Of a stretch of 48,970 nucleotides of DNA, positions 1,438 through 24,856 are shown piece after piece. Positions within the stretch are counted from its first letter, which is position 1, and each line of letters opens with the position of its first letter. The stretch comes from a virus. The notes under the pieces were generated by a model that was not told the origin of the DNA, ran no database searches, and saw only the letters and a list, made by a program, of their open reading frames with translations. The translations under genes were made by a program, and so were the position numbers. The DNA lies in the IMG/VR virus record IMGVR_UViG_3300049484_000359, positions 1 to 48,970 of that record. One strand, written 5' to 3'.

Positions 1438-1982
1438 ACGACGAAGCGGAGGCTTTGCTATCCCATCCAAATAATGGGGCTCGGCTTCCAGTCTTTACGA
1501 AAGATCATCGCGGAATGCCTGAAGGTACCCCGCGTATCTCTCCTGTCTTTCGTACGATCTTAGGCGTAGCTGCGCATCATGATTCCATTCGAGATACGGC
1601 CAAGCTATTTGGCGTCGGGACTCATACTGTACAAGCTGCGAAGGTTGGCGAGCATGTATCTGGCGCGGTGATCCCAGAAGTAAAAGAGAACGTAGAAGCC
1701 ATCATAAGTAAAGGGAAGTCAGACGTACGTAAAGGAGCCCTTGACGCTCTTGCCGGAATGTTCGCGGATACGATTACGCAAGAGAATCTATCCACACTCA
1801 AGCCAAGAGAAGCTGTCTCGGCGGCGAAGGATCTTGCTGTAGTTGTCGAAAAGCTTTCTCCTAAGTCTGCGGGTGGAAACGTTGCTGTCTTCGTCCACGC
1901 TCCACAGGTTAAGCAAGAGGAAACTTTTGGTGAACCAATAGAAGTTGAGTACAATCCGATGGATGAAGGAAAACTCGAATGA
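1425..1982 (+). CDS. terS: Putative terminase small subunit
   Basis: 185 residues. Near residues 48-66 lies a helix-turn-helix-like stretch (DSIRDTAKLFGVGTHTVQAA), followed by helical, charged sequence, as in phage small terminases that bind the packaging site. It lies directly upstream of the large terminase and overlaps it by ATGA. A longer frame from 1287 exists, but its extra N-terminus is unlike protein and runs through the structured leader. The ATG at 1425 has GGAG 11 bases upstream, supplied by the tandem duplication. The assignment rests on position and the DNA-binding motif. Confidence 0.7.
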   Translation: MEISNDEAEALLSHPNNGARLPVFTKDHRGMPEGTPRISPVFRTILGVAAHHDSIRDTAKLFGVGTHTVQAAKVGEHVSGAVIPEVKENVEAIISKGKSDVRKGALDALAGMFADTITQENLSTLKPREAVSAAKDLAVVVEKLSPKSAGGNVAVFVHAPQVKQEETFGEPIEVEYNPMDEGKLE

Positions 1983-3634
1983 GTGTCGAGATCCTTCCTA
2001 ACGAGCAGCTGCGGATTGATATTCGTATGAATCCAAAGCAGGCCCTTTTCTGCTCGATTCCGACATCAATCAAGGAAGGATTCTATGGTGGGTCGGCGGG
2101 ATCAGGTAAGTCATACTGCCTCACGTTAGATCCACTCCTTAGACAGTTTCATCAACATCCGCGTTTCACTGGTATCCTCTTTCGTGAATCCTACCCTGAG
2201 CTTGAAAAGTCGCTTATCCGAGAATCTGCCATCTGGTATCCTCATTTTGGAGCCACATATAATGGCAGTGAGCACAACTGGACTTTCCCGAGCGGGGCAA
2301 AGATATGGTTCTCATATCTTGCTAAAGACTCTCAAGTAACCCAGCACGACTCAGCACAGTACAACTATGCGGCATTCGATGAGCTGACGCAGTTCTCTCG
2401 ATACCGCTATATGTACATCGTGCATACACGCGTCAGATCTGCTGTTGAGGGTTTACCTGCGTACTCGAGATCTGCCTCTAACCCACTTGGAATTGGTCAT
2501 GCGTGGGTTAAAGAGAGATTCGTCGAGCCTGCTCCTCTAGGTGGACGTATCATAGCTGAGCGGATGCCTGATGGTAAAGTTGTCAAGCGTATTTTTATCA
2601 AGGCGCTCGTTCAAGATAATCCCATCCTTCTCAAGGCAAACCCAGAATACATCAACTCTCTCATGCTCTTGCCCGAAGCGGAGCGGAGATCGAAGCTGTA
2701 TGGAGACTGGGATGCAATTGCTGGTGCTGTATTCCGTGAGTTCCGCCAGCTTCATAATGCGGATGAGCCCGAGAATGCGGTACACGTAATTGAGCCCTTT
2801 ATAATCCCCGATCACTGGCCAGTCATACTTGCCATAGATTGGGGCTTTGATGCCATGACTTGGGCTGGCTTCTTTGCTGTGTCTCCATCTGGACGTGTCT
2901 ATCTTTGTCAAGAGTTCTCGGCGCGGCAGACAAAGATAAGCGTATGGGGCGCGGATCTGGCGCGGATAGCTGCTCGATATGCTGGGCTTCGCACTCCAGT
3001 AACGCTTGACGGATCGGCATGGGGTAATCGTGGCGAAGAGTTGACTCTGGCAGAGCAGATAGAAAATGCTATGGGTCTCCCCGTAGAAAAAGCTGATCGA
3101 GATCGTATTGGTGGAAAGATGCTCTTGCATGAGTATCTAAGGTGGCGGCCTCGGCCTAAGAAGTATGAACCACCTGATGGGTATGATCCTGAGATCGAGC
3201 AAAAGATCTGGAGGATCCGTGGAGATAAAGCGGCAGCAGATTATCGTGCCTACTTTATGCCCGAGCCCGATGAGGTTAATCTTCCTCAGTATCAAATCTT
3301 CAATACTTGTCCCCTTGCAATACAAGCACTTGTTGCTTGCACCACGGATCCAGATAATCCAGAAGATGTACAAGAATGGGATGGGGACGATCCTTATGAT
3401 GGTCAACGATATGGACTCAAGCGAGTTCATAGATACTTCGAGGAGGCCAAGCAGGCTGGCTCGTTGGTTGGTCGTCGAGATGATATAGTTGAGCGTCTCC
3501 ATAAGACCGGAGATATGACACAGTTCTACCAAGAGATGGAAGCTCTCGAGCTTCTTGAGGCAGTGACAGATGGGCCAGTCAGAAGGTACAGCACACTTCG
3601 CTCCGGTCGGTCTTACCGTTCCGTTCACAGATAA
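1979..3634 (+). CDS. terL: Terminase large subunit
   Basis: 551-residue packaging motor. The ATPase domain shows Walker A GGSAGSGKS at residues 37-45 and a Walker B/DE pair at FDE 133-135. The C-terminal RNase-H-like nuclease begins at VILAIDWGFD, with catalytic D287 in the AIDWG motif. It drives ATP-dependent DNA translocation into the procapsid and cuts DNA at headful or site-specific ends. The length is normal for the family. The start overlaps the previous stop codon (ATGA), so translation is coupled. The tail of the gene overlaps the next frame by 65 bases. Confidence 0.95.
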   Translation: MSVEILPNEQLRIDIRMNPKQALFCSIPTSIKEGFYGGSAGSGKSYCLTLDPLLRQFHQHPRFTGILFRESYPELEKSLIRESAIWYPHFGATYNGSEHNWTFPSGAKIWFSYLAKDSQVTQHDSAQYNYAAFDELTQFSRYRYMYIVHTRVRSAVEGLPAYSRSASNPLGIGHAWVKERFVEPAPLGGRIIAERMPDGKVVKRIFIKALVQDNPILLKANPEYINSLMLLPEAERRSKLYGDWDAIAGAVFREFRQLHNADEPENAVHVIEPFIIPDHWPVILAIDWGFDAMTWAGFFAVSPSGRVYLCQEFSARQTKISVWGADLARIAARYAGLRTPVTLDGSAWGNRGEELTLAEQIENAMGLPVEKADRDRIGGKMLLHEYLRWRPRPKKYEPPDGYDPEIEQKIWRIRGDKAAADYRAYFMPEPDEVNLPQYQIFNTCPLAIQALVACTTDPDNPEDVQEWDGDDPYDGQRYGLKRVHRYFEEAKQAGSLVGRRDDIVERLHKTGDMTQFYQEMEALELLEAVTDGPVRRYSTLRSGRSYRSVHR

Positions 3635-15839: not shown

Positions 15840-17716
15840 TGGCTGACTACGACTTCGCTCCCGGTTCAATAGCTCAATTCCGAGGTCGGATGGCTCGGGG
15901 TAGCGTCGATGGTGTGCCTCGAGATTTTGCAATTGACGAAAGAAACAATGAGTTTATTGAGCTGGGAGTGAAGACTCGTAGTGGTTTCGCTTCATTTCTT
16001 CAAACTACCGGTAACTGGAATGGAAAGGTTCTTCGAGGTTACGAGTATAAGAAGCGAAATGAGGCAAGTCGAAGACTCGTACTAGATGACACGGGTAAGA
16101 TCTGGGATACATCAACGGCGATGACAACTCCCATATTGTCAATTGCCACGATGACAGATTTTTCTGCTTTGACTCTATACGACCGAGTTTATATCACGCC
16201 ACATGATGGCGAGCGAGGTCTTTCAAATGAAAAAGTCTACGTCTACGATGGGACTGGAGTTGCCCGAATTGCGGCCGGTGCTGGTCCATCCGGATATACC
16301 CTTGGAGCTGCTACGGGGTCTACAGGAATTGTCGATGCAGGTGTTCATCTCTTCTCAGTTGCCTTTGAGACAGCTTCCGGACATATCACAAAGTTTGGTC
16401 TTGCAGGAGCTGAGGTTGCCACTTACACTGCCCCAGGCAATAAGAAGGTTAACCTTTCAGGGATTCCTACAGGCGGATCTTTCGTTGTTGCGAGACATAT
16501 CATAGTCACAAAAGTTATCAAGGACTACAATGGAAATCCAGTTGATAAGACTTGGTACTTCTTGCCTGATGGAAAGATATCGGATAACGTAACCACAGTT
16601 CTAAACGATATTAACTTCTACGATACGGATCTGATTGATTCTGCTAGTCGACTCATGGATCAGTTGGCCGAGATTCCAGCAGGAAGTTGTATCGGAACTC
16701 TTGGAACTCGTATGGTTGTGGGTGGTGAAAGAGTGAATGATGCCACTCTACGAGTTTCTTTTCCTGGTGAACCCGAGTCGATGTCGGATATTACTGGTAT
16801 TATTAACATAGATCCAGGAGATGCTGGAGGTGGAGTTCGAAACTTTGTAGAGTATAGGTCGAATCTGTACGTTCAGAAGGATTTCAGATTCTATGTAACG
16901 AGTGATAATGAGTCTGATCCCTCGACGTGGAAAGCTCCACAAATTGATGCTTCTCAAGGTACATCCACGCATGGTACTGCTGGCGTTCTAGATTCAAAGG
17001 GACAATCACTTGAATCTTTCTTGATTTGTACTCGAACTGGTCTTTATCGTTTCACTGGATCATTTGGTGATCAACGAGAGCTTTCCTATGTGATTGAGGA
17101 CTTGTGGAAGAGGATCAATCCTGTCTACTTCTATAAGCTCCAAATATCTATCGATCCCATAGTAAAGCGCTTGTACGTTTCGGTTCCGCTTGATACTGCA
17201 ACCTCACCATCGCACATCTTTATGGGTGACTTCTCTGAGGGTCTGACTGCTGATAAGATCAAGTGGTCCATATGGACGCTTCCGAATGCTCCCTCGACTC
17301 ATTGGGTTGAGGTGGATTGGACGACTCGACGTACCATCTTCAGGTATGGTTCCGAAGCGGGTGGTGTGTACTCTCACACTCCTGGACGACTGAATGACTT
17401 CAACAATCTAATCACAAGCTACTATCGTCCAGGTCAATTGGTTGATTCTACCGGAGGAGTGCTACAAATAATAGCAGTTCGAGTGCGTGCTATCGGATCT
17501 GGGAATCTCTATCTCAAACTATATGCGTTAGATGATTCTCAAGTATCTACACTTCCGTCGCTCACTCTTTCCGCCTCACCGGGGAAAGAACTTACTCGAC
17601 TAGTTGGTACGTTTAACAGTGAAAGAATCTCAGTCGAGTTTGGAGTCTCAAGTATAGATCATTGGTATCAGCTTACCAAGATTCGATTGGCCGCCTCGAC
17701 CCTCTGGGAATTGTAG
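15839..17716 (+). CDS. Tail nozzle-like protein
   Basis: 625 residues, beta-rich, containing repeated strand motifs such as LVLDDTGKIWDT, RVYITPHDG, NLYVQKDFRFYVT and ICTRTGLYRFTG that resemble beta-propeller blades. Proteins of this size and type form the hollow nozzle beneath the adaptor (T7 gp12 or P22 gp10-like). Its place right after the adaptor fits. It ends at the GTG start of the next gene. No enzyme motif. Confidence 0.7.
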   Translation: MADYDFAPGSIAQFRGRMARGSVDGVPRDFAIDERNNEFIELGVKTRSGFASFLQTTGNWNGKVLRGYEYKKRNEASRRLVLDDTGKIWDTSTAMTTPILSIATMTDFSALTLYDRVYITPHDGERGLSNEKVYVYDGTGVARIAAGAGPSGYTLGAATGSTGIVDAGVHLFSVAFETASGHITKFGLAGAEVATYTAPGNKKVNLSGIPTGGSFVVARHIIVTKVIKDYNGNPVDKTWYFLPDGKISDNVTTVLNDINFYDTDLIDSASRLMDQLAEIPAGSCIGTLGTRMVVGGERVNDATLRVSFPGEPESMSDITGIINIDPGDAGGGVRNFVEYRSNLYVQKDFRFYVTSDNESDPSTWKAPQIDASQGTSTHGTAGVLDSKGQSLESFLICTRTGLYRFTGSFGDQRELSYVIEDLWKRINPVYFYKLQISIDPIVKRLYVSVPLDTATSPSHIFMGDFSEGLTADKIKWSIWTLPNAPSTHWVEVDWTTRRTIFRYGSEAGGVYSHTPGRLNDFNNLITSYYRPGQLVDSTGGVLQIIAVRVRAIGSGNLYLKLYALDDSQVSTLPSLTLSASPGKELTRLVGTFNSERISVEFGVSSIDHWYQLTKIRLAASTLWEL

Positions 17717-19134
17717 TGGCAGTTACATCTAGCTACGATAAGATCAGCCGCTTGATTGATACATATAGGACGAAGGATCCTCGTCTGGCTGAGATCCTCT
17801 CGACTATTGCATCTGATCTTAATTTGACAATTCTCACGATTAATCCACTACAGGAGACGGTATCAGTTCTTGGTGCCTTTGATGCTGTGCCACCCGATGA
17901 TCTGACGACTGTCGTGGTGTCGCTTCTTCAATTGAACATCCAAATAACTTGGGGAGCAGTTACTGGGGCTCAATTTTACGAGATTCGTGAGGGGGTTGAC
18001 TGGGACACAGCAGTCTTCATACTTAAGACGGCATCGCTTAGTGCTAACATAGAGCCGAGATTGATTGGATCTTATAATCTTCTAATAAAGGGTCTAAGCT
18101 CTGCGTCCGTGTATAGTACCAATGCGATGGCCTTCCAAATCATTATCCCTGCATTGGGATCTATGGTATTGTCTGCCAGTACGATAGACAATAACGTAAT
18201 GCTCAGTTGGAATGCTCCTACGTCTTCTTTTCAAATTCATCACTACAATCTCTACAAGGATACAATCAAGTTCGCCGAGCATAATGGACTCTTCTTTTCT
18301 CGACCCGAGGTAGCTGCTGGTACTTATCTCTTTGAGGTTGAAGCGGTTGACATCGTTGGTAACATGTCGGCAAAGGCGAGTGCAAGTGCAACTGTCAACA
18401 CACCGCCAGATTACATGTTACAAGATGAGAGAACAATTGATCTCTCAACTGTAACAAAGTCGAATGCGGTACTTCAGAATGGAAGGATCATCGCTTGCGT
18501 CAATCTTGTTGAGACATATCAAGACCACTTCACTAGTCGTGGTTGGGCCTCGCCTCAAGATCAGATTGACGATGGGTACGCTCGATGGATTCAGGACAAC
18601 CCACTCACTGGTTATATCCTAGATGAGTATGACTATGGTACGGTTCTTTCAAATACTGTAGCTAGTGTATCCTATGTCAAAGAGATTTACACAGGTACAA
18701 ACGATGTACTCGTAGTTGTAAAAATGAGTTGGAGTGAAGATGGCATAACTTGGAATGACGAACAAATAGGAGAATCGCAGTTCATAGCCTCGCTTCGATA
18801 TCTTAGACTCAAGTTTGAGTTTAATGCATCAAATGACGACGCTATGATATCTTTCTACAATGCAGTGGTAAGATTGAGTGTCAAACGAGAAGTGGACTCT
18901 GGATCGTTCTATGCAGATGAGAACGATTCCAGTGGGACGCTTGTCTTATTCAATAAATCATTTAAGGACGTAGACTCAATTACTGCTACAGCAGCAGAAG
19001 CTCGCACTCCTATCTACGTAAGCGTGAACTTTTTAGACGTTCCGAATCCAGTTTCCTTCAGGGTCCTTGCCTTCGACTCTGCTGGGCGACGAGTTAGTCA
19101 TTGGATTGACTGGAAGGCAAGAGGGATAGTATAA
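17716..19134 (+). CDS. Fibronectin-type tail protein
   Basis: 472 residues from GTG 17716 (GGGAAT upstream). Two fibronectin-III-like units are visible: ITWGAVTGAQFYEIREG... and LSWNAPTSSFQIHHYNLYKD..., with the usual W and Y/L core positions. The N-terminal 90 residues are helical, and the C-terminal half is beta. Such domains sit at tail tips and baseplates and contact host glycans. It follows the nozzle gene directly. Confidence 0.7.
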   Translation: MAVTSSYDKISRLIDTYRTKDPRLAEILSTIASDLNLTILTINPLQETVSVLGAFDAVPPDDLTTVVVSLLQLNIQITWGAVTGAQFYEIREGVDWDTAVFILKTASLSANIEPRLIGSYNLLIKGLSSASVYSTNAMAFQIIIPALGSMVLSASTIDNNVMLSWNAPTSSFQIHHYNLYKDTIKFAEHNGLFFSRPEVAAGTYLFEVEAVDIVGNMSAKASASATVNTPPDYMLQDERTIDLSTVTKSNAVLQNGRIIACVNLVETYQDHFTSRGWASPQDQIDDGYARWIQDNPLTGYILDEYDYGTVLSNTVASVSYVKEIYTGTNDVLVVVKMSWSEDGITWNDEQIGESQFIASLRYLRLKFEFNASNDDAMISFYNAVVRLSVKREVDSGSFYADENDSSGTLVLFNKSFKDVDSITATAAEARTPIYVSVNFLDVPNPVSFRVLAFDSAGRRVSHWIDWKARGIV

Positions 19135-20387: not shown

Positions 20388-20821
20388 TGGCCGACTGGAA
20401 TGACCCACTCATTGATGATCCATATGCTGATCTTCTAGCTACATTTAAGGCTAGAGATGAAGATGCGGCATCTCATGCTGAGAGCCCTACAAATCCTCCT
20501 ATAGGTTATATCAGGTGGGTTGTATCGACATCTAAGTTCCAAAGATGGAGTGGCGCCATATGGGTTGATCTAGTCCTTGCTGTAGGAAGCGGAGGGACGG
20601 GTGGAACTTCAGCACTTGGAACGTTGGCTTTTCAATCAGCCTCAGCAGTTGCAATTACTGGTGGAACGCTTACGGGAGTTGCAATCACGCTAGGTGGTAA
20701 TCTTTCCTTTGATGCGGATGGAACACGAAACATCGGATCTTTCGCGACTCAGGCTGGAAAGATATACGTCAAGAATGCGTGCGTCATCCCAGTCGGACCC
20801 AATAAGTGGGAGACGGTATGA
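20384..20821 (+). CDS. Short tail-fibre-like protein
   Basis: 145 residues, ATG 20384 or 20387. PIGYIRWVVST...FQRWSGAIWVDL and GTLAFQSASAVAITGGTLTG are motifs recurrent in phage tail fibres. Gly/Thr-rich middle, beta C-terminus. It overlaps the zincin start (ATGA at 20818-20821). Likely a fibre or chaperone-like companion. Confidence 0.6.
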   Translation: MMADWNDPLIDDPYADLLATFKARDEDAASHAESPTNPPIGYIRWVVSTSKFQRWSGAIWVDLVLAVGSGGTGGTSALGTLAFQSASAVAITGGTLTGVAITLGGNLSFDADGTRNIGSFATQAGKIYVKNACVIPVGPNKWETV

Positions 20822-21270
20822 TCTTCGATCCTCCTCCTGCAATCGTTGAGAAGTATGAACCTATCTCTCCGTATCCGCTTCGATTTAAAGTGAACGCAGA
20901 TGAGAAACGAAAGAAGTCCATAGCAGAAGCGATCAAAGGAGTACATAAAGGACAGAGATCAATTGTCGATGCATTCAAGCTAAACGTCCTTGATGATCCA
21001 ACGGTAGACATAGTTTTTAACCCAAATAGTAAGTCGAGCGATTCAATTACGGCTTACACAAAGCAAGGAAAGAAGAAGATAAACGTTAATAAATCCTTCT
21101 TCGCAAATCGCACTGATAAAGATAGAACGACTACTCTTAGTCATGAATTGCTTCACGCAGTTGGGCTTCCAGAGCAAATAGAAGGTCACGACTCAGAGTA
21201 CCTCAAACATCCAATAGATGCATCTCAAGCTAACTCTAGAGAGTTGAGGCGGTTACTTGGACTGGATTGA
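20818..21270 (+). CDS. Zinc metalloprotease-like (zincin)
   Basis: 150 residues from ATG 20818 (ATGA overlap; GGGAG upstream). The active-site motif HELLH (H109, E110, H113) is followed by G116 and H124, close to the zincin pattern HExxHxxG. It is too short to be an ordinary secreted protease but long enough for a minimal zincin. The gene overlaps that of the His-x-Asp protein and so may process it, or it may act on host cell wall or virion proteins. Activity is inferred from the motif. Confidence 0.7.
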   Translation: MIFDPPPAIVEKYEPISPYPLRFKVNADEKRKKSIAEAIKGVHKGQRSIVDAFKLNVLDDPTVDIVFNPNSKSSDSITAYTKQGKKKINVNKSFFANRTDKDRTTTLSHELLHAVGLPEQIEGHDSEYLKHPIDASQANSRELRRLLGLD

Positions 21271-22051
21271 GTCAAGTCCAATAAGGCGACGAAGACGAAA
21301 GAAGATAGTTGAATCTTCTTCATATCCAGTCCCAGTAACAGTCTATCTAGATAAGGGACCTGGATCAATTTGGATCGAGGATAAAGAGTTCCACTGGATT
21401 GATTCGAACAAGGCTGAGTGGTATTTTCCTGGTACACTAGTTGAGGCAGCTACAACAGGTAGACCTGGATCTATCTGGATCGAGGGTGACGACTTTCATT
21501 ACATCGACGCATATGGTGATGATAGAAAAGTTTATGGTCCAGTTGGGTCTACTCAGAGTGCTAGACCAAGTATTTGGATAGAGGCAACCTCATCACTCTT
21601 CTCCTGGATAACTGAGCTGTTAGCTAAGAACGTAAGTGGACACGTCGACGTTGTTCACTCAGATACCCATGGTGATACAACGCATAATGATCATGGAGAT
21701 GTTGCTCATGCTGATATTACTCATGTGGATTCTCACGATGATTGGCATAGTGATATTCCACATAGTGATAGTCATAGCGATACTCATAGTGATACACATG
21801 TAGATGAGCATACAGATCATCAAGATGGTTTTAGTCAACCAGATCACTACGACGAGCATACAGACTATCACGATGATTCTCACAGTGACGAAGTTCACTC
21901 AGATGTGAATCATACAGACGATCACGGTGATACGACGCATGGTGATGTCCCTCATACAGATACCCATACGGATCATAACGATAGCGCGCACGTAGATACA
22001 CATGGAGACGTAGTCCACACGGATCTACCAATCTATGTAGGTTTAACATGA
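21257..22051 (+). CDS. His-x-Asp repeat virion protein, probable modification substrate
   Basis: 264 residues, TTG start at 21257 with GAGG about seven bases upstream, overlapping the zincin gene by 14 bases. Residues 8-17 are basic (Arg/Lys run), probably a surface or DNA contact. Residues 35-120 hold three short beta units of the form PGSIWIEGDDFHYID. Residues 129-256 contain 29 histidines, every one in a H-x-D triplet, with Thr, Ser, Val and Gly between; the gene ends in LPIYVGLT. The tract could bind metals, but its place next to a radical SAM enzyme points to modification. The stop overlaps that enzyme's start codon (ATGA). Confidence 0.75.
   Translation: MDWIESSPIRRRRRKKIVESSSYPVPVTVYLDKGPGSIWIEDKEFHWIDSNKAEWYFPGTLVEAATTGRPGSIWIEGDDFHYIDAYGDDRKVYGPVGSTQSARPSIWIEATSSLFSWITELLAKNVSGHVDVVHSDTHGDTTHNDHGDVAHADITHVDSHDDWHSDIPHSDSHSDTHSDTHVDEHTDHQDGFSQPDHYDEHTDYHDDSHSDEVHSDVNHTDDHGDTTHGDVPHTDTHTDHNDSAHVDTHGDVVHTDLPIYVGLT
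21641..22024 (+). repeat. DNA encoding the H-x-D tract
   Basis: Degenerate run of CAY-NNN-GAY codons, 29 copies over about 384 bp. Codons for His and Asp alternate between synonymous forms, so the array is not a simple recent expansion. Confidence 0.8.
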
Positions 22052-23196
22052 CAATAGAAGTCGTCATTACGCCAGCTTGTAACATCAAGTGTACGTATTG
22101 TTATCAAGATCCGATGCGGGATGCTGGTAATTTTGGTGTAGGTCTGCCTCAGTTCGATCGGATCTTTAAGTCTATCGAACAAGCAAATGTAGGTGCAAAG
22201 AAGCCCGGATTCACCGTCTTTGGTGGCGATCCGCTTCTTAATCCCATCCAGACTCTAGAACGTCTATGGGGTTTTGGGTTGGAGAAATACGGTCATAATG
22301 GTGTACAGACTAATGGTGAGTTAATTACGGATGAGCACATTACTTTGTTCATCAAGTACAATGTAGGAGTTGGGATTAGCGTTGATGGACCCTGGCCGTT
22401 GAATAAAGCAAGGAGTGATGAGAAAGGAACAAATAAAACGCTTGATGCTATTAAGAAGTTGAGAGAAGTAAATAGACCGCCCGCGATATCAGTAACGATA
22501 TCTCGAGCTAATGCTAGTCCAGAGCGGCTAGATCAACTTCTTAATTGGATCAAGGAGATAGGTGAGTGGACGTCTGAGATTCGCTTTCATTCTTTAGAGG
22601 TTGATGGAGAAAAGGCTAAGCATTTAGTCCTATCTGAAGCTGATGAGATCGCGGCTTACAGGGCACTGAGTACACTCAAAATCAAAGCAATCATACAGCC
22701 AATGCTGGACATGCGAAATCTTCTAGCTGGAAAGTTCGATGATGTGGGATGTACCTGGAATGGTTGCGATCCACTCTCTACTCCGGCTGTTCAAGGTATA
22801 GGAGCAGATGGTCGATTAACAAATTGCGGAAGGACAAACAAAGATGGCGTGATGTATCAAAAAGCAAATACGCATGGAAATGAAAGAACTATCGCACTGT
22901 ATCATACACCATACGAAGCTGGTGGATGTAAAGATTGTCGATACTTCTTTGCCTGTCGTGGTCAGTGCCCAGGTGAAGCGATAGATGGAGATTGGAGAAA
23001 TCGATCTTCTCATTGTCGCCTTTACTATGCGCTATTTGAGGATATCGAGAAAGAGGTTGGACGTATACCAGATGACAAGATCAAGGAGTATGAACGACGC
23101 ATAACTCTTTCCACATCTGGACATGGAGATCAGCATGGTGACGTGCAGCATGTCGATCATAATATCCTCATGGTTCCTGTAAAGGTCAAGTCATGA
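22048..23196 (+). CDS. Radical SAM/SPASM peptide-modifying enzyme
   Basis: 382 residues. CNIKCTYC (C11, C15, C18) is the radical SAM 4Fe-4S motif; GGDPLLNP, QTNGELIT and GISVDGP are the usual SAM/barrel positions. The SPASM domain is textbook: C-x14-G-x4-C, then CKDC-x5-C-x3-C (CKDCRYFFACRGQC) and a later C. Such enzymes build crosslinks or other changes in peptides. Remarkably, its last 25 residues include three H-x-D triplets (HGD, HGD, HVD), matching the neighbouring substrate-like protein. It overlaps both flanking genes by ATGA. Confidence 0.92.
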   Translation: MTIEVVITPACNIKCTYCYQDPMRDAGNFGVGLPQFDRIFKSIEQANVGAKKPGFTVFGGDPLLNPIQTLERLWGFGLEKYGHNGVQTNGELITDEHITLFIKYNVGVGISVDGPWPLNKARSDEKGTNKTLDAIKKLREVNRPPAISVTISRANASPERLDQLLNWIKEIGEWTSEIRFHSLEVDGEKAKHLVLSEADEIAAYRALSTLKIKAIIQPMLDMRNLLAGKFDDVGCTWNGCDPLSTPAVQGIGADGRLTNCGRTNKDGVMYQKANTHGNERTIALYHTPYEAGGCKDCRYFFACRGQCPGEAIDGDWRNRSSHCRLYYALFEDIEKEVGRIPDDKIKEYERRITLSTSGHGDQHGDVQHVDHNILMVPVKVKS

Positions 23197-24563
23197 ATCG
23201 CACTGGTATTATTCTTCCAGAGTTTACGCGCGTCATCTGGTCATCGGCGGACGCTCAAAAGATGTGGGAGCCTGAGATCCAGAAGGTCAGCAACTACGTT
23301 ACAGACATGGAACTTCAGTCTGTTTTGAGAGGTCGTAAAGCCATCCAGTCAGCATCGGGTCAAAGATTTGCATATGTATCTAACTTTGCCCATCAAAACG
23401 GTTTAGTTATTATAGCACTTGGAGCGACCAACTCAATAAACTACCAATCCAGTCCATCGCCATATAATCCTAATCAACCCTTTGCAGTTAAGTATGCAAT
23501 CCTACGACCTGAGTATGTTGAAAATTTCATAAAGGACTGGAGATCTGGAGATAACGACGCGATTGGTCTTCATCTTGGTTTTCCTAGGTGTTGCCGCGCT
23601 TTCTTCAATCGAGTGTGGGTAGAACAGAAATATCTTGATACGACATGGGCTATGGGAGAAGATCGCGCATTAGGAAATAATATCGAGGCTGGTGGTCCAG
23701 ATGAGTGTAACATCATGCTTCGATGGATGGGTGTACGATCTACCCCACATCTTCCTTGCTCGTTTCATTGTCATCGAACTGTGGACTTTGCTGACACCTT
23801 CAATGACAAATCTCGACCTGAGTATGCATCACTGATGGAAATGCTCTCATGGCCTATTGAGTGGTCAGCCCTTCATGGCATTGCTCGTATTAAGACTCCA
23901 CTCTTTGAGATCGTAACAAGGACAGACCATACGAATGAGAAATATACAGTAAGAAGGGAAGGTAAAAAGTATCCAACTAATGGTGCACGAGGATTGGTCT
24001 TCCCATTCCGTTCACGCCCTGAACAGGAAGTACAAGTTTCCGCGTCGGAAAGTATATGGAAAGATAATGGCTTTTCGACCAAGGAAGCTATGCAGAGTGC
24101 TCATGCCATCATCTTAAATACACTAATTCCTGTGACCCCTGAACTACTTTGTATCCACGACTTTGGATGCGGCAATGGCATGTTGCTTAGTCAGATATCT
24201 AATGTGGTAGAGCATTGCTCGCTTCATGGTGTAGACATAAAGGAGTTTAAGAACCCAAAGTCAAACATCCATTTGCATCAAGCTGATATCATGGAGTACC
24301 ATGAGATCTTCAAGCATACGGGACGAGGTGGACTTGTCTTAATGTCCGTTAATCGATTCGATGACGTGAAAGATGTAGAAAAGCTCAAGCATGTACTTCG
24401 ATATAGTGGGGAGTTCTTCCTCTTTTACTCGTATGATAAATCAGACTTTCAAGTCGATGGAGCTTTTGAGCTACTGAATGAGCAGACAAATGGTATCACG
24501 TACGCTAAGCTCTATCGACAGGAGTTAGGAAAATGGCAAGGCATTTCAGTGATGAAGAAGTAA
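23193..24563 (+). CDS. GFPRCC-domain and methyltransferase fusion
   Basis: 456 residues. N-terminal domain with HLGFPRCCRAFF (C133, C134) and LPCSFHCH (C189, C193), a Cys pattern recalling DUF483-type proteins (G-F/Y-P-x-CC) that accompany radical SAM enzymes and may bind a metal or cluster. The C-terminal domain is a class I methyltransferase with DFGCGNG (323-329), an acidic VDI loop and a VLMSVNRFDD segment. It overlaps the radical SAM gene by ATGA. Probably a second modifying or a carrier protein in the same pathway. Confidence 0.75.
   Translation: MNRTGIILPEFTRVIWSSADAQKMWEPEIQKVSNYVTDMELQSVLRGRKAIQSASGQRFAYVSNFAHQNGLVIIALGATNSINYQSSPSPYNPNQPFAVKYAILRPEYVENFIKDWRSGDNDAIGLHLGFPRCCRAFFNRVWVEQKYLDTTWAMGEDRALGNNIEAGGPDECNIMLRWMGVRSTPHLPCSFHCHRTVDFADTFNDKSRPEYASLMEMLSWPIEWSALHGIARIKTPLFEIVTRTDHTNEKYTVRREGKKYPTNGARGLVFPFRSRPEQEVQVSASESIWKDNGFSTKEAMQSAHAIILNTLIPVTPELLCIHDFGCGNGMLLSQISNVVEHCSLHGVDIKEFKNPKSNIHLHQADIMEYHEIFKHTGRGGLVLMSVNRFDDVKDVEKLKHVLRYSGEFFLFYSYDKSDFQVDGAFELLNEQTNGITYAKLYRQELGKWQGISVMKK
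24010..24024. promoter_or_regulatory. Palindromic site 4, GTTCA-CGCCC-TGAAC
   Basis: Exact copy of the dispersed palindrome inside the fusion gene, reading as codons SRPEQ; so it is kept despite coding constraint. Confidence 0.5.
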
Positions 24564-24856
24564 AAAATCTCGATCCTCGACTTGTCGAGCTTTTAGACTT
24601 CGCACGAGAATCGGCAGGTATACCTTTCGTAATCACTGAAGGTTATGCCGTAGGTGGTTCTCATGTTGGTAACACAGCGCACCAACGTGGTAAGGCTGTG
24701 GATATTCGAGCACGAGATGGGGTATCAAGATTCAAGATCCTCACTGCTTTGCTCTCAGTCGGTTTTGTTCGATTAGGTGTGTACAATCATCACATACATG
24801 CTGATATCGATGCGACATTACCGCAGAACGTCATCTGGTGTGGAGTAAGCAAATGA
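24533..24856 (+). CDS. M15-family peptidase (endolysin-like)
   Basis: 107 residues. Zinc-binding signature of M15 peptidases: SHVGNTAH (H50), VDIR (D57) and HHIHADID (H89), in the order and spacing of D-Ala or L-Ala-D-Glu carboxypeptidases that cut cell-wall peptides. Short length is normal for this group in phages. It lacks a signal peptide, so it would need a holin to reach the wall. Start is supported by GGAG/AGGAAA. The first 31 bases overlap the upstream gene. Confidence 0.8.
   Translation: MARHFSDEEVKNLDPRLVELLDFARESAGIPFVITEGYAVGGSHVGNTAHQRGKAVDIRARDGVSRFKILTALLSVGFVRLGVYNHHIHADIDATLPQNVIWCGVSK

Follow-up and report, generated by a model that had tools for sequence, protein, structure and literature searches.

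A conserved phage tail-region module of a repeat protein, a radical SAM/SPASM enzyme and a GFxCC protein, with a proposed role in cross-linking residue triplets

Introduction

Why should a virus keep, among its tail genes, a radical S-adenosylmethionine (SAM) enzyme directly behind a protein in which tens of histidines are each followed, two residues later, by an aspartate? The question is raised by the IMG/VR virus record IMGVR_UViG_3300049484_000359, whose full length of 48,970 bases is called here the window. A sequence-only reading of this DNA had seen four overlapping open reading frames (ORFs), encoding a zincin, a His-x-Asp (H-x-D) repeat protein, a radical SAM/SPASM enzyme and a Cys-domain methyltransferase, and had proposed that together they modify a structural phage protein. 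The four ORFs are present where that reading placed them, with start and stop codons overlapping in ATGA at 20818, 22048 and 23193. The last three, encoding the repeat protein, the enzyme and a protein with a GFxCC motif, almost certainly form a conserved module, which is set in phage tail genes. We think it fairly likely that the three parts serve the post-translational modification of a phage tail-region protein, with a cyclophane on each triplet, a chemistry that we infer from sequence.

Components of the module

The module has the following features in the window.

21257..22051, plus strand: repeat protein of 264 residues, the presumed substrate (the TTG start at 21257 is uncertain; homologues begin near 21347)
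21347..21649, plus strand: N-terminal domain of the repeat protein, with three 'GSxWI-G-x-HYID' beta units
21641..22024, plus strand: H-x-D tract, residues 129-256, with 29 H-x-D triplets
22016..22048, plus strand: C-terminal peptide HTDLPIYVGLT, a variant of the recurrent repeat-protein ending H-x-D-x-P-x-x-V/I-G
22048..23196, plus strand: radical SAM/SPASM enzyme of 382 residues, the presumed maturase
22078..22101, plus strand: CxxxCxxC radical SAM cluster motif, CNIKCTYC, at residue 11
22765..23016, plus strand: SPASM cysteine region, with Cys 240, 260, 294, 297, 303, 307 and 323
23122..23160, plus strand: the enzyme's own H-x-D tail, HGDQHGDVQHVDH
23193..24563, plus strand: GFPRCC (DUF483-like) protein fused to a SAM methyltransferase domain, the presumed accessory protein
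23577..23594, plus strand: GFPRCC motif, at residue 129 of the fourth ORF
23748-23771, plus strand: HLPCSFHC motif of the GFxCC protein

The repeat protein has 31 histidines, of which His 46 and His 81 lie in the N-terminal domain and the remaining 29 in the tract (residues 129-254), where Asp stands at +2 in 29 of 29, so that the count first reported is exact. When the 132-residue tract was shuffled 200,000 times, H-x-D triplets numbered 7.2 on average and 16 at most, against the 29 real ones. Triplets follow each other at spacings of 3, 4 or 5 residues, with a single gap of 9, and draw on the two codons of His as well as the two of Asp; such unequal spacings and mixed codons argue that the tract is not a simple DNA repeat. 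The N-terminal domain is present in 64 ORFs from 62 related loci, and fold searches gave it no relative in the PDB and just one confident viral match.

The identity of the third ORF as a radical SAM enzyme with a SPASM domain was borne out by a Pfam radical SAM match (E=5.9e-17), by the CxxxCxxC motif and by a complete seven-Cys SPASM pattern (CX14GX4C from residue 240, CX2CX5CX3C from 294 and a last Cys at 323), whose cysteines are invariant in 25 diverse family members. The protein begins directly with the radical SAM core, which leaves no room for an N-terminal peptide-recognition domain. At its other end it carries the H-x-D tail HGDQHGDVQHVDH, a feature absent from the earlier reading, and 82% of 91 enzyme family members have at least two H-x-D or H-x-N triplets (H-x-D/N) after residue 320. 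In one relative (L139:10403-13315) a single repeat protein is followed by a tandem pair of this family's radical SAM genes, and the first of the pair has a long tail of repeated PHGDHTDQALVEGIVDR units.

Linkage between repeat protein and enzyme

A single-sequence search of viral contigs returned no relative; in the IMG/VR alignment searches an alignment query succeeded, and many uncultured phages proved to have the repeat protein together with the enzyme. The set assembled from the enzyme side holds 91 distinct loci after removal of duplicates, and a repeat ORF was defined in it by at least eight H-x-D/N. Such an ORF occurs at 83 loci, a GFxCC gene at 86 and both at 78. All but one of the 113 repeat ORFs (112) lie within 5 kb of the enzyme, many of the genes abut or overlap, and at more than half of the enzyme loci the repeat gene ends at most 15 bases from the enzyme gene or overlaps it. 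Among the loci without an H-x-D/N ORF, two have Phe-type repeat proteins instead (L231, L281), two begin at a contig edge (L292, L294), two are of the L231 type, with altered gene order and near contig ends (L227, L228), and one is an 8-kb fragment (L007) whose close relative, the phage phiLo, has repeat proteins about 4 kb off on the other strand.

Across 50,697 phage records, the enzyme matched the Thermus phages phiLo, Cumys and phiMa at 42-48% identity and, weakly, one unannotated contig at 25%. The N-terminal domain of the repeat protein matched phiMa and Cumys, and the GFxCC protein matched phiLo, phiMa and Cumys. The apparent exception, phiLo, has three giant repeat proteins near baseplate genes, annotated as hypothetical.

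L359:41511-47364 (phiLo 141511-147364): giant repeat proteins of phiLo, with 58, 104 and 75 H-x-D/N

The association also holds when the repeats are the starting point, as the earlier reading had asked of its own proposal. A DNA pattern of four consecutive H-x-D-x, blind to the enzyme, gave at least 120 loci. Among the matches listed, the enzyme was in the excerpt for 16 of the 20 in-frame ORFs with at least 15 H-x-D and for none of the others (0/58 for ORFs with no H-x-D, 0/35 with 1-8 and 0/7 with 9-14). A protein of 14 triplets that mixes H-x-D and H-x-E (L143) has the enzyme elsewhere on its contig. Two of the four misses (L205, L211) resemble low-complexity frames, a third (L189) is cut off by its contig end on the side where the enzyme gene would be expected, and the fourth (L208) is genuine. 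In two bacterial classes (780 genomes) the enzyme was found in 4 genomes, all 4 with an H-x-D protein immediately upstream.

Could the repeats be a chance or low-complexity artefact, with the enzyme an unrelated neighbour? Microsatellite-like H-x-D ORFs do exist (L195, L187, L142), but they come without the enzyme, whereas true repeat proteins come with it in many divergent lineages. The repeat-side counts (16/20 against 0/100 among the matches listed) contradict a chance association, to which we give next to no credence. The tract is very probably the substrate of the radical SAM enzyme.

Conservation of the triplet motif

The element first taken as key was H-x-D. Its triplet register stands; His and Asp as such do not, because the conserved motif is aromatic-x-(Asp/Asn) and orthologs switch from His to Phe or Tyr and from Asp to Asn. 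In 63 pooled tracts, D/N stands at +2 of His in 98% of cases (n=2058), against 11, 7 and 4% at +1, +3 and +4. In one group of loci (L015-L030), Phe has D/N at +2 in 84% (n=205), and Ser, Ala and Tyr show no such pattern. Two orthologs with the same N-terminal domain go further in this direction: in one (L231), 93% of 42 Phe are followed two residues on by N/D, and in the other (L281), N, S, Q or D is at +2 for 99 of 103 Phe. Phe-type stretches also occur in parts of L016 and L139, and Tyr-x-Asp in L041, L024, L236 and L288.

Close relatives (10 independent pairs) give the same picture. Position 1 changed in 2.2% of cases versus 6.5% for linker residues; the eight position 1 swaps include H/Y three times, H/W once and F/W once, and of the 14 differences at position 3, 11 exchange D and N. 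On the enzyme tree, where the window enzyme has a long branch and an unsure position, H-x-N needs at least seven changes and F-rich tracts at least three. Such recurrent shifts suggest that the enzyme family tolerates different rings. A tie between substrate type and enzyme clade was considered and rejected: the types are clustered on the tree, yet they changed many times.

These switches bear on a further explanation, in which the tract is a metal-binding or acid-buffering segment of a fibre and its radical SAM modification is incidental. His/Asp-rich sequence is a classical chelator, and the window tract has 29 His and 33 Asp per 132 residues. However, the Phe-x-Asn/Gln/Ser tracts (L231, L281, parts of L016 and L139) are unable to chelate likewise, and yet F-type tracts keep the register, the N-terminal domain and the enzyme. 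Since a change from His to Phe would destroy a metal site but not a bond from ring to beta-carbon, we rejected the idea that H-x-D serves mainly to bind metal, and hold this explanation to be very unlikely.

Some repeat proteins of the L015-L030 group contain Cys-rich inserts (L015:1391-1933, L016:7428-8636), and the phages that have them possess, in addition, genes for collagen-like GPTG repeat proteins whose tails are H/F-x-N.

The GFxCC protein and its methyltransferase half

The fourth ORF proved to consist, as had been read from its motifs, of a GFPRCC region and a C-terminal SAM-methyltransferase half, the latter matching methyltransferases both by alignment profile and by predicted fold. 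Its Pfam matches are all under cutoff, including that of the Cys-containing region to DUF483/PF04467 (14.1 bits, cutoff 25). Four Cys and one His of the GFxCC protein (GFPxCC ... HLPCxxxC) are 94-100% conserved, and this set likely forms a metal or iron-sulfur site. The N-terminal half has a confident predicted fold, for which a search against the PDB gave no match; the methyltransferase half alone gives matches, resembles natural-product methyltransferases and has as its best fold match BpumL, a methyltransferase of ribosomally synthesized and post-translationally modified peptides (RiPPs).

The earlier reading had counted a methyltransferase among the parts of the system. The GFxCC protein keeps this place (86 of 91 loci), but the methyltransferase half is optional: a motif test found it in 75 of 86 GFxCC partners and not in the other 11, among which are some fragments and the partners of all three Thermus phages. 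Being optional, this half is not the core activity. The partner in Cumys is annotated as DUF483, the family to which the window protein matches weakly. Unlike plain DUF483 proteins, the module's partner forms one protein with a methyltransferase at most loci, and in two genomes it is fused to the radical SAM enzyme.

The frequency of the methyltransferase domain among partners also raises the possibility that the tract is the enzyme's substrate for another modification, such as beta-hydroxylation or epimerisation of Asp/Asn, methylation or some other change of the His/Phe ring, with the methyltransferase half perhaps contributing. SPASM chemistry is diverse, and the best profile matches of the enzyme form a mixed group (DynA, AmcB and sulfatase maturase). 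Against this, loci without the methyltransferase half retain the repeats (Thermus phages, L024, L171), and both ends of the triplet are conserved, the first being mostly aromatic, which a bond between residues i and i+2 fits better than a change to a single residue. We regard a modification of this kind as unlikely.

The two fusions to the enzyme occur in bacterial genomes from the class of Sphaerisporangium (L367:9541-11700, L368:8850-10901) and argue that the GFxCC protein acts in the same reaction. Both directly follow a protein of 1363-1395 residues that ends in a short H-x-D tract, and a Sphingomonas locus (L042) has a 1363-residue protein arranged in the same way; these three may be non-phage uses of the module. 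At four other loci (L015:3318-3683, L016:11342-11707, L029:11322-11687, L030:5486-5839) an extra protein of 118-122 residues lies between the enzyme and the GFxCC gene, with two H-A-D-H-x-D-x-x-G-x-Y-like motifs that are shared with the enzyme tail of that clade.

Genomic context

The surroundings of the module in the window include the following genes.

1979-3634: terminase gene
17662-19134: tail/host-specificity-like gene, upstream of the module
20818..21270, plus strand: HELLH (SprT/zincin-like) protein, with HELLH at residue 109, judged to be outside the module
24533-24856: M15/endolysin-like gene, downstream of the module

The terminase, tail/host-specificity-like and M15/endolysin-like genes place the module within late tail genes. 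Scans of the window for Rfam families and tRNAs gave no match. The HELLH motif of the first ORF is indeed there, in a protein that is weakly SprT-like (26.5 bits, cutoff 25.6). Its proposed membership in the pathway fell, as any HExxH gene is nearby in 9 of 91 loci and these are of several unrelated types; a zincin as the pathway's protease was ruled out because no such gene is kept beside the module.

Relatives repeat the tail setting. In one (L008), the tract is the C-terminal part of a protein like the central tail fibre J (phrog_31, 4e-47; Pfam Phage-tail_3, 1.9e-15); in two others (L031, L111) it comes after a LamG domain; and in Cumys the repeat protein is just downstream of a collar-fibre gene. 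A plasmid of the haloarchaeon Halomicrococcus (L361:6359-9519) has the full module in a tail-like cluster, downstream of a baseplate J gene, and the triplets of its tract pair H, Y or F with D or N. The late tail-gene setting and these fusions and neighbours make it highly likely, as far as gene context goes, that the repeat protein is part of the virion.

This setting matters for a different proposal. Kolesnik et al. (2024) described an 'rSAM module' trio in Cumys, phiMa and prophages, noted that DUF483 can be fused to a methyltransferase or an rSAM domain, and proposed that DNA is modified in an unknown way (PMC11437467); the third protein of the trio is given no function there, and the word histidine is nowhere in that paper. 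The Thermus-phage trio consists of the same three adjacent genes as in the window, with Cumys and phiMa enzymes 42-45% identical to the window's, and the third protein appears here as a likely substrate with a defined motif. That the module modifies phage DNA is suggested by relatives of the enzyme and of DUF483 that lie among deazapurine genes in some cyanobacteria (PMC11437467). But a DNA target is made highly improbable by four observations: the conserved trio is completed by the repeat protein, tail genes surround the module, some tail proteins have the repeats fused to them, and the repeat motif recurs in the enzyme.

Discussion

If the tract is the substrate, what would be made on it? 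The closest likeness is to triceptide systems (XncB/XyeB, OscB/GrrM, MscB, YxdB, HaaB, YhhB), where, as in the module, a SPASM radical SAM gene adjoins a substrate with aromatic-x-polar pairs at i and i+2. Triceptide enzymes join Phe C4 to the beta-carbon of Asn or Ser, Trp to that of Asn, Asp or Arg, Tyr C3 to that of Asp, and His C2 to that of Ala or Arg (PMC11002830). In the known examples position 3 is taken by N, D, S, R or A, and the module's substrate is likewise aromatic-x-polar; F-x-N, F-x-S, Y-x-D, W-x-N/D and His at position 1 are common to both. Because the residue pairs are of the same kind, we judge that a cyclophane is probably the product on the triplets. There are also differences. 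A triceptide precursor is a short peptide, whereas the module's substrate has 264 residues in the window, with an N-terminal beta domain, and about 150-1400 elsewhere, with up to about 100 triplets. Unlike triceptide systems, the module has a GFxCC partner and a copy of the motif in the enzyme's own tail. Since its sequence places the enzyme in no named maturase family, we liken the module to a triceptide system and do not class it as one.

The His-Xaa-Ser (Hxs) system likewise pairs His-x-polar repeats with radical SAM genes, and its HxsB is a family in NCBIfam. The window enzyme scores 31.9 bits against HxsB (cutoff 370) and so falls below that family, and the tracts of the module have D/N, not Ser, at +2 of His in 98%.

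Several observations weigh against a stapled tail protein. The enzyme is far under the curated cutoff for every named cyclophane maturase family (69.9 bits against 425 for AmcB, 56.8 against 445 for YhhB, 45 against 310 for GrrM/OscB and 39.3 against 450 for XyeB), and H-x-D is not among the triceptide examples, in which His pairs with Ala and Arg (PMC11002830). The cyclophane itself is read from analogy, and the putative place in the virion from context and relatives. Position 1 also changed to or from non-aromatic residues (H/L twice, A/F once). One locus (L282) has enzyme and partner with no repeat ORF on the stretch examined, and a Halorussus plasmid (L362:7001-9206) has the enzyme and a GFxCC-like gene with no repeat ORF in the neighbourhood, and is either an exception to the linkage or what is left of a module. 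Conversely, a tail-region-like protein with 39 H-x-D (L208:2014-2841) has no such enzyme on its contig of 18.9 kb.

We nevertheless favour cyclophane formation, which could proceed as follows. The enzyme would act on every aromatic-x-(Asp/Asn) triplet of the tract and most likely form a carbon-carbon bond between the beta-carbon of residue i+2 and the side-chain ring of residue i, whether this is the imidazole of His or the ring of Phe, Tyr or Trp. Each triplet would become a three-residue cyclophane with a loss of 2 Da, and the mature tract a series of small strained rings linked by a few free residues. With tens of such staples in a row, a tract that is by itself flexible, charged and of low complexity would become a stiff and protease-resistant rod or anchor on the tail, which the phage might use, and here we speculate, as an anchor, a spike or a spring. 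The GFxCC protein could be a metal-bearing helper, a presenter of the substrate or a second modifying enzyme, and its methyltransferase half would add an optional decoration. More speculatively, the H-x-D tail of the enzyme might be a substrate of the enzyme itself, or might imitate the substrate and so keep the active site occupied.

We somewhat favour the broader view of a widespread viral stapled fibre, in which proteins associated with the tails of bacterial phages and with an archaeal tail-like cluster carry tens to about 100 enzyme-made three-residue cyclophanes on aromatic-x-(Asp/Asn) repeats. In the open-access literature, with most subscription papers outside its scope, our search found no phage cyclophane and no radical SAM-modified virion protein. 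The triplet staple, probably the work of the enzyme, would give a rigid fibre by a modification not previously described for a virus particle. If the proposal is true, viruses would have turned a radical SAM chemistry familiar from small natural-product peptides to the making of a mechanical part, in tail gene clusters of bacteria and archaea alike; one protein could bear up to about 100 of the crosslinks. The 'rSAM module' of Thermus phages would gain a testable function. The proposal would also predict stiff protein fibres of a new class, for which a single enzyme and a repeat encoded in the genome can suffice, and virions would contain a crosslinked structural polymer without known counterpart in them.

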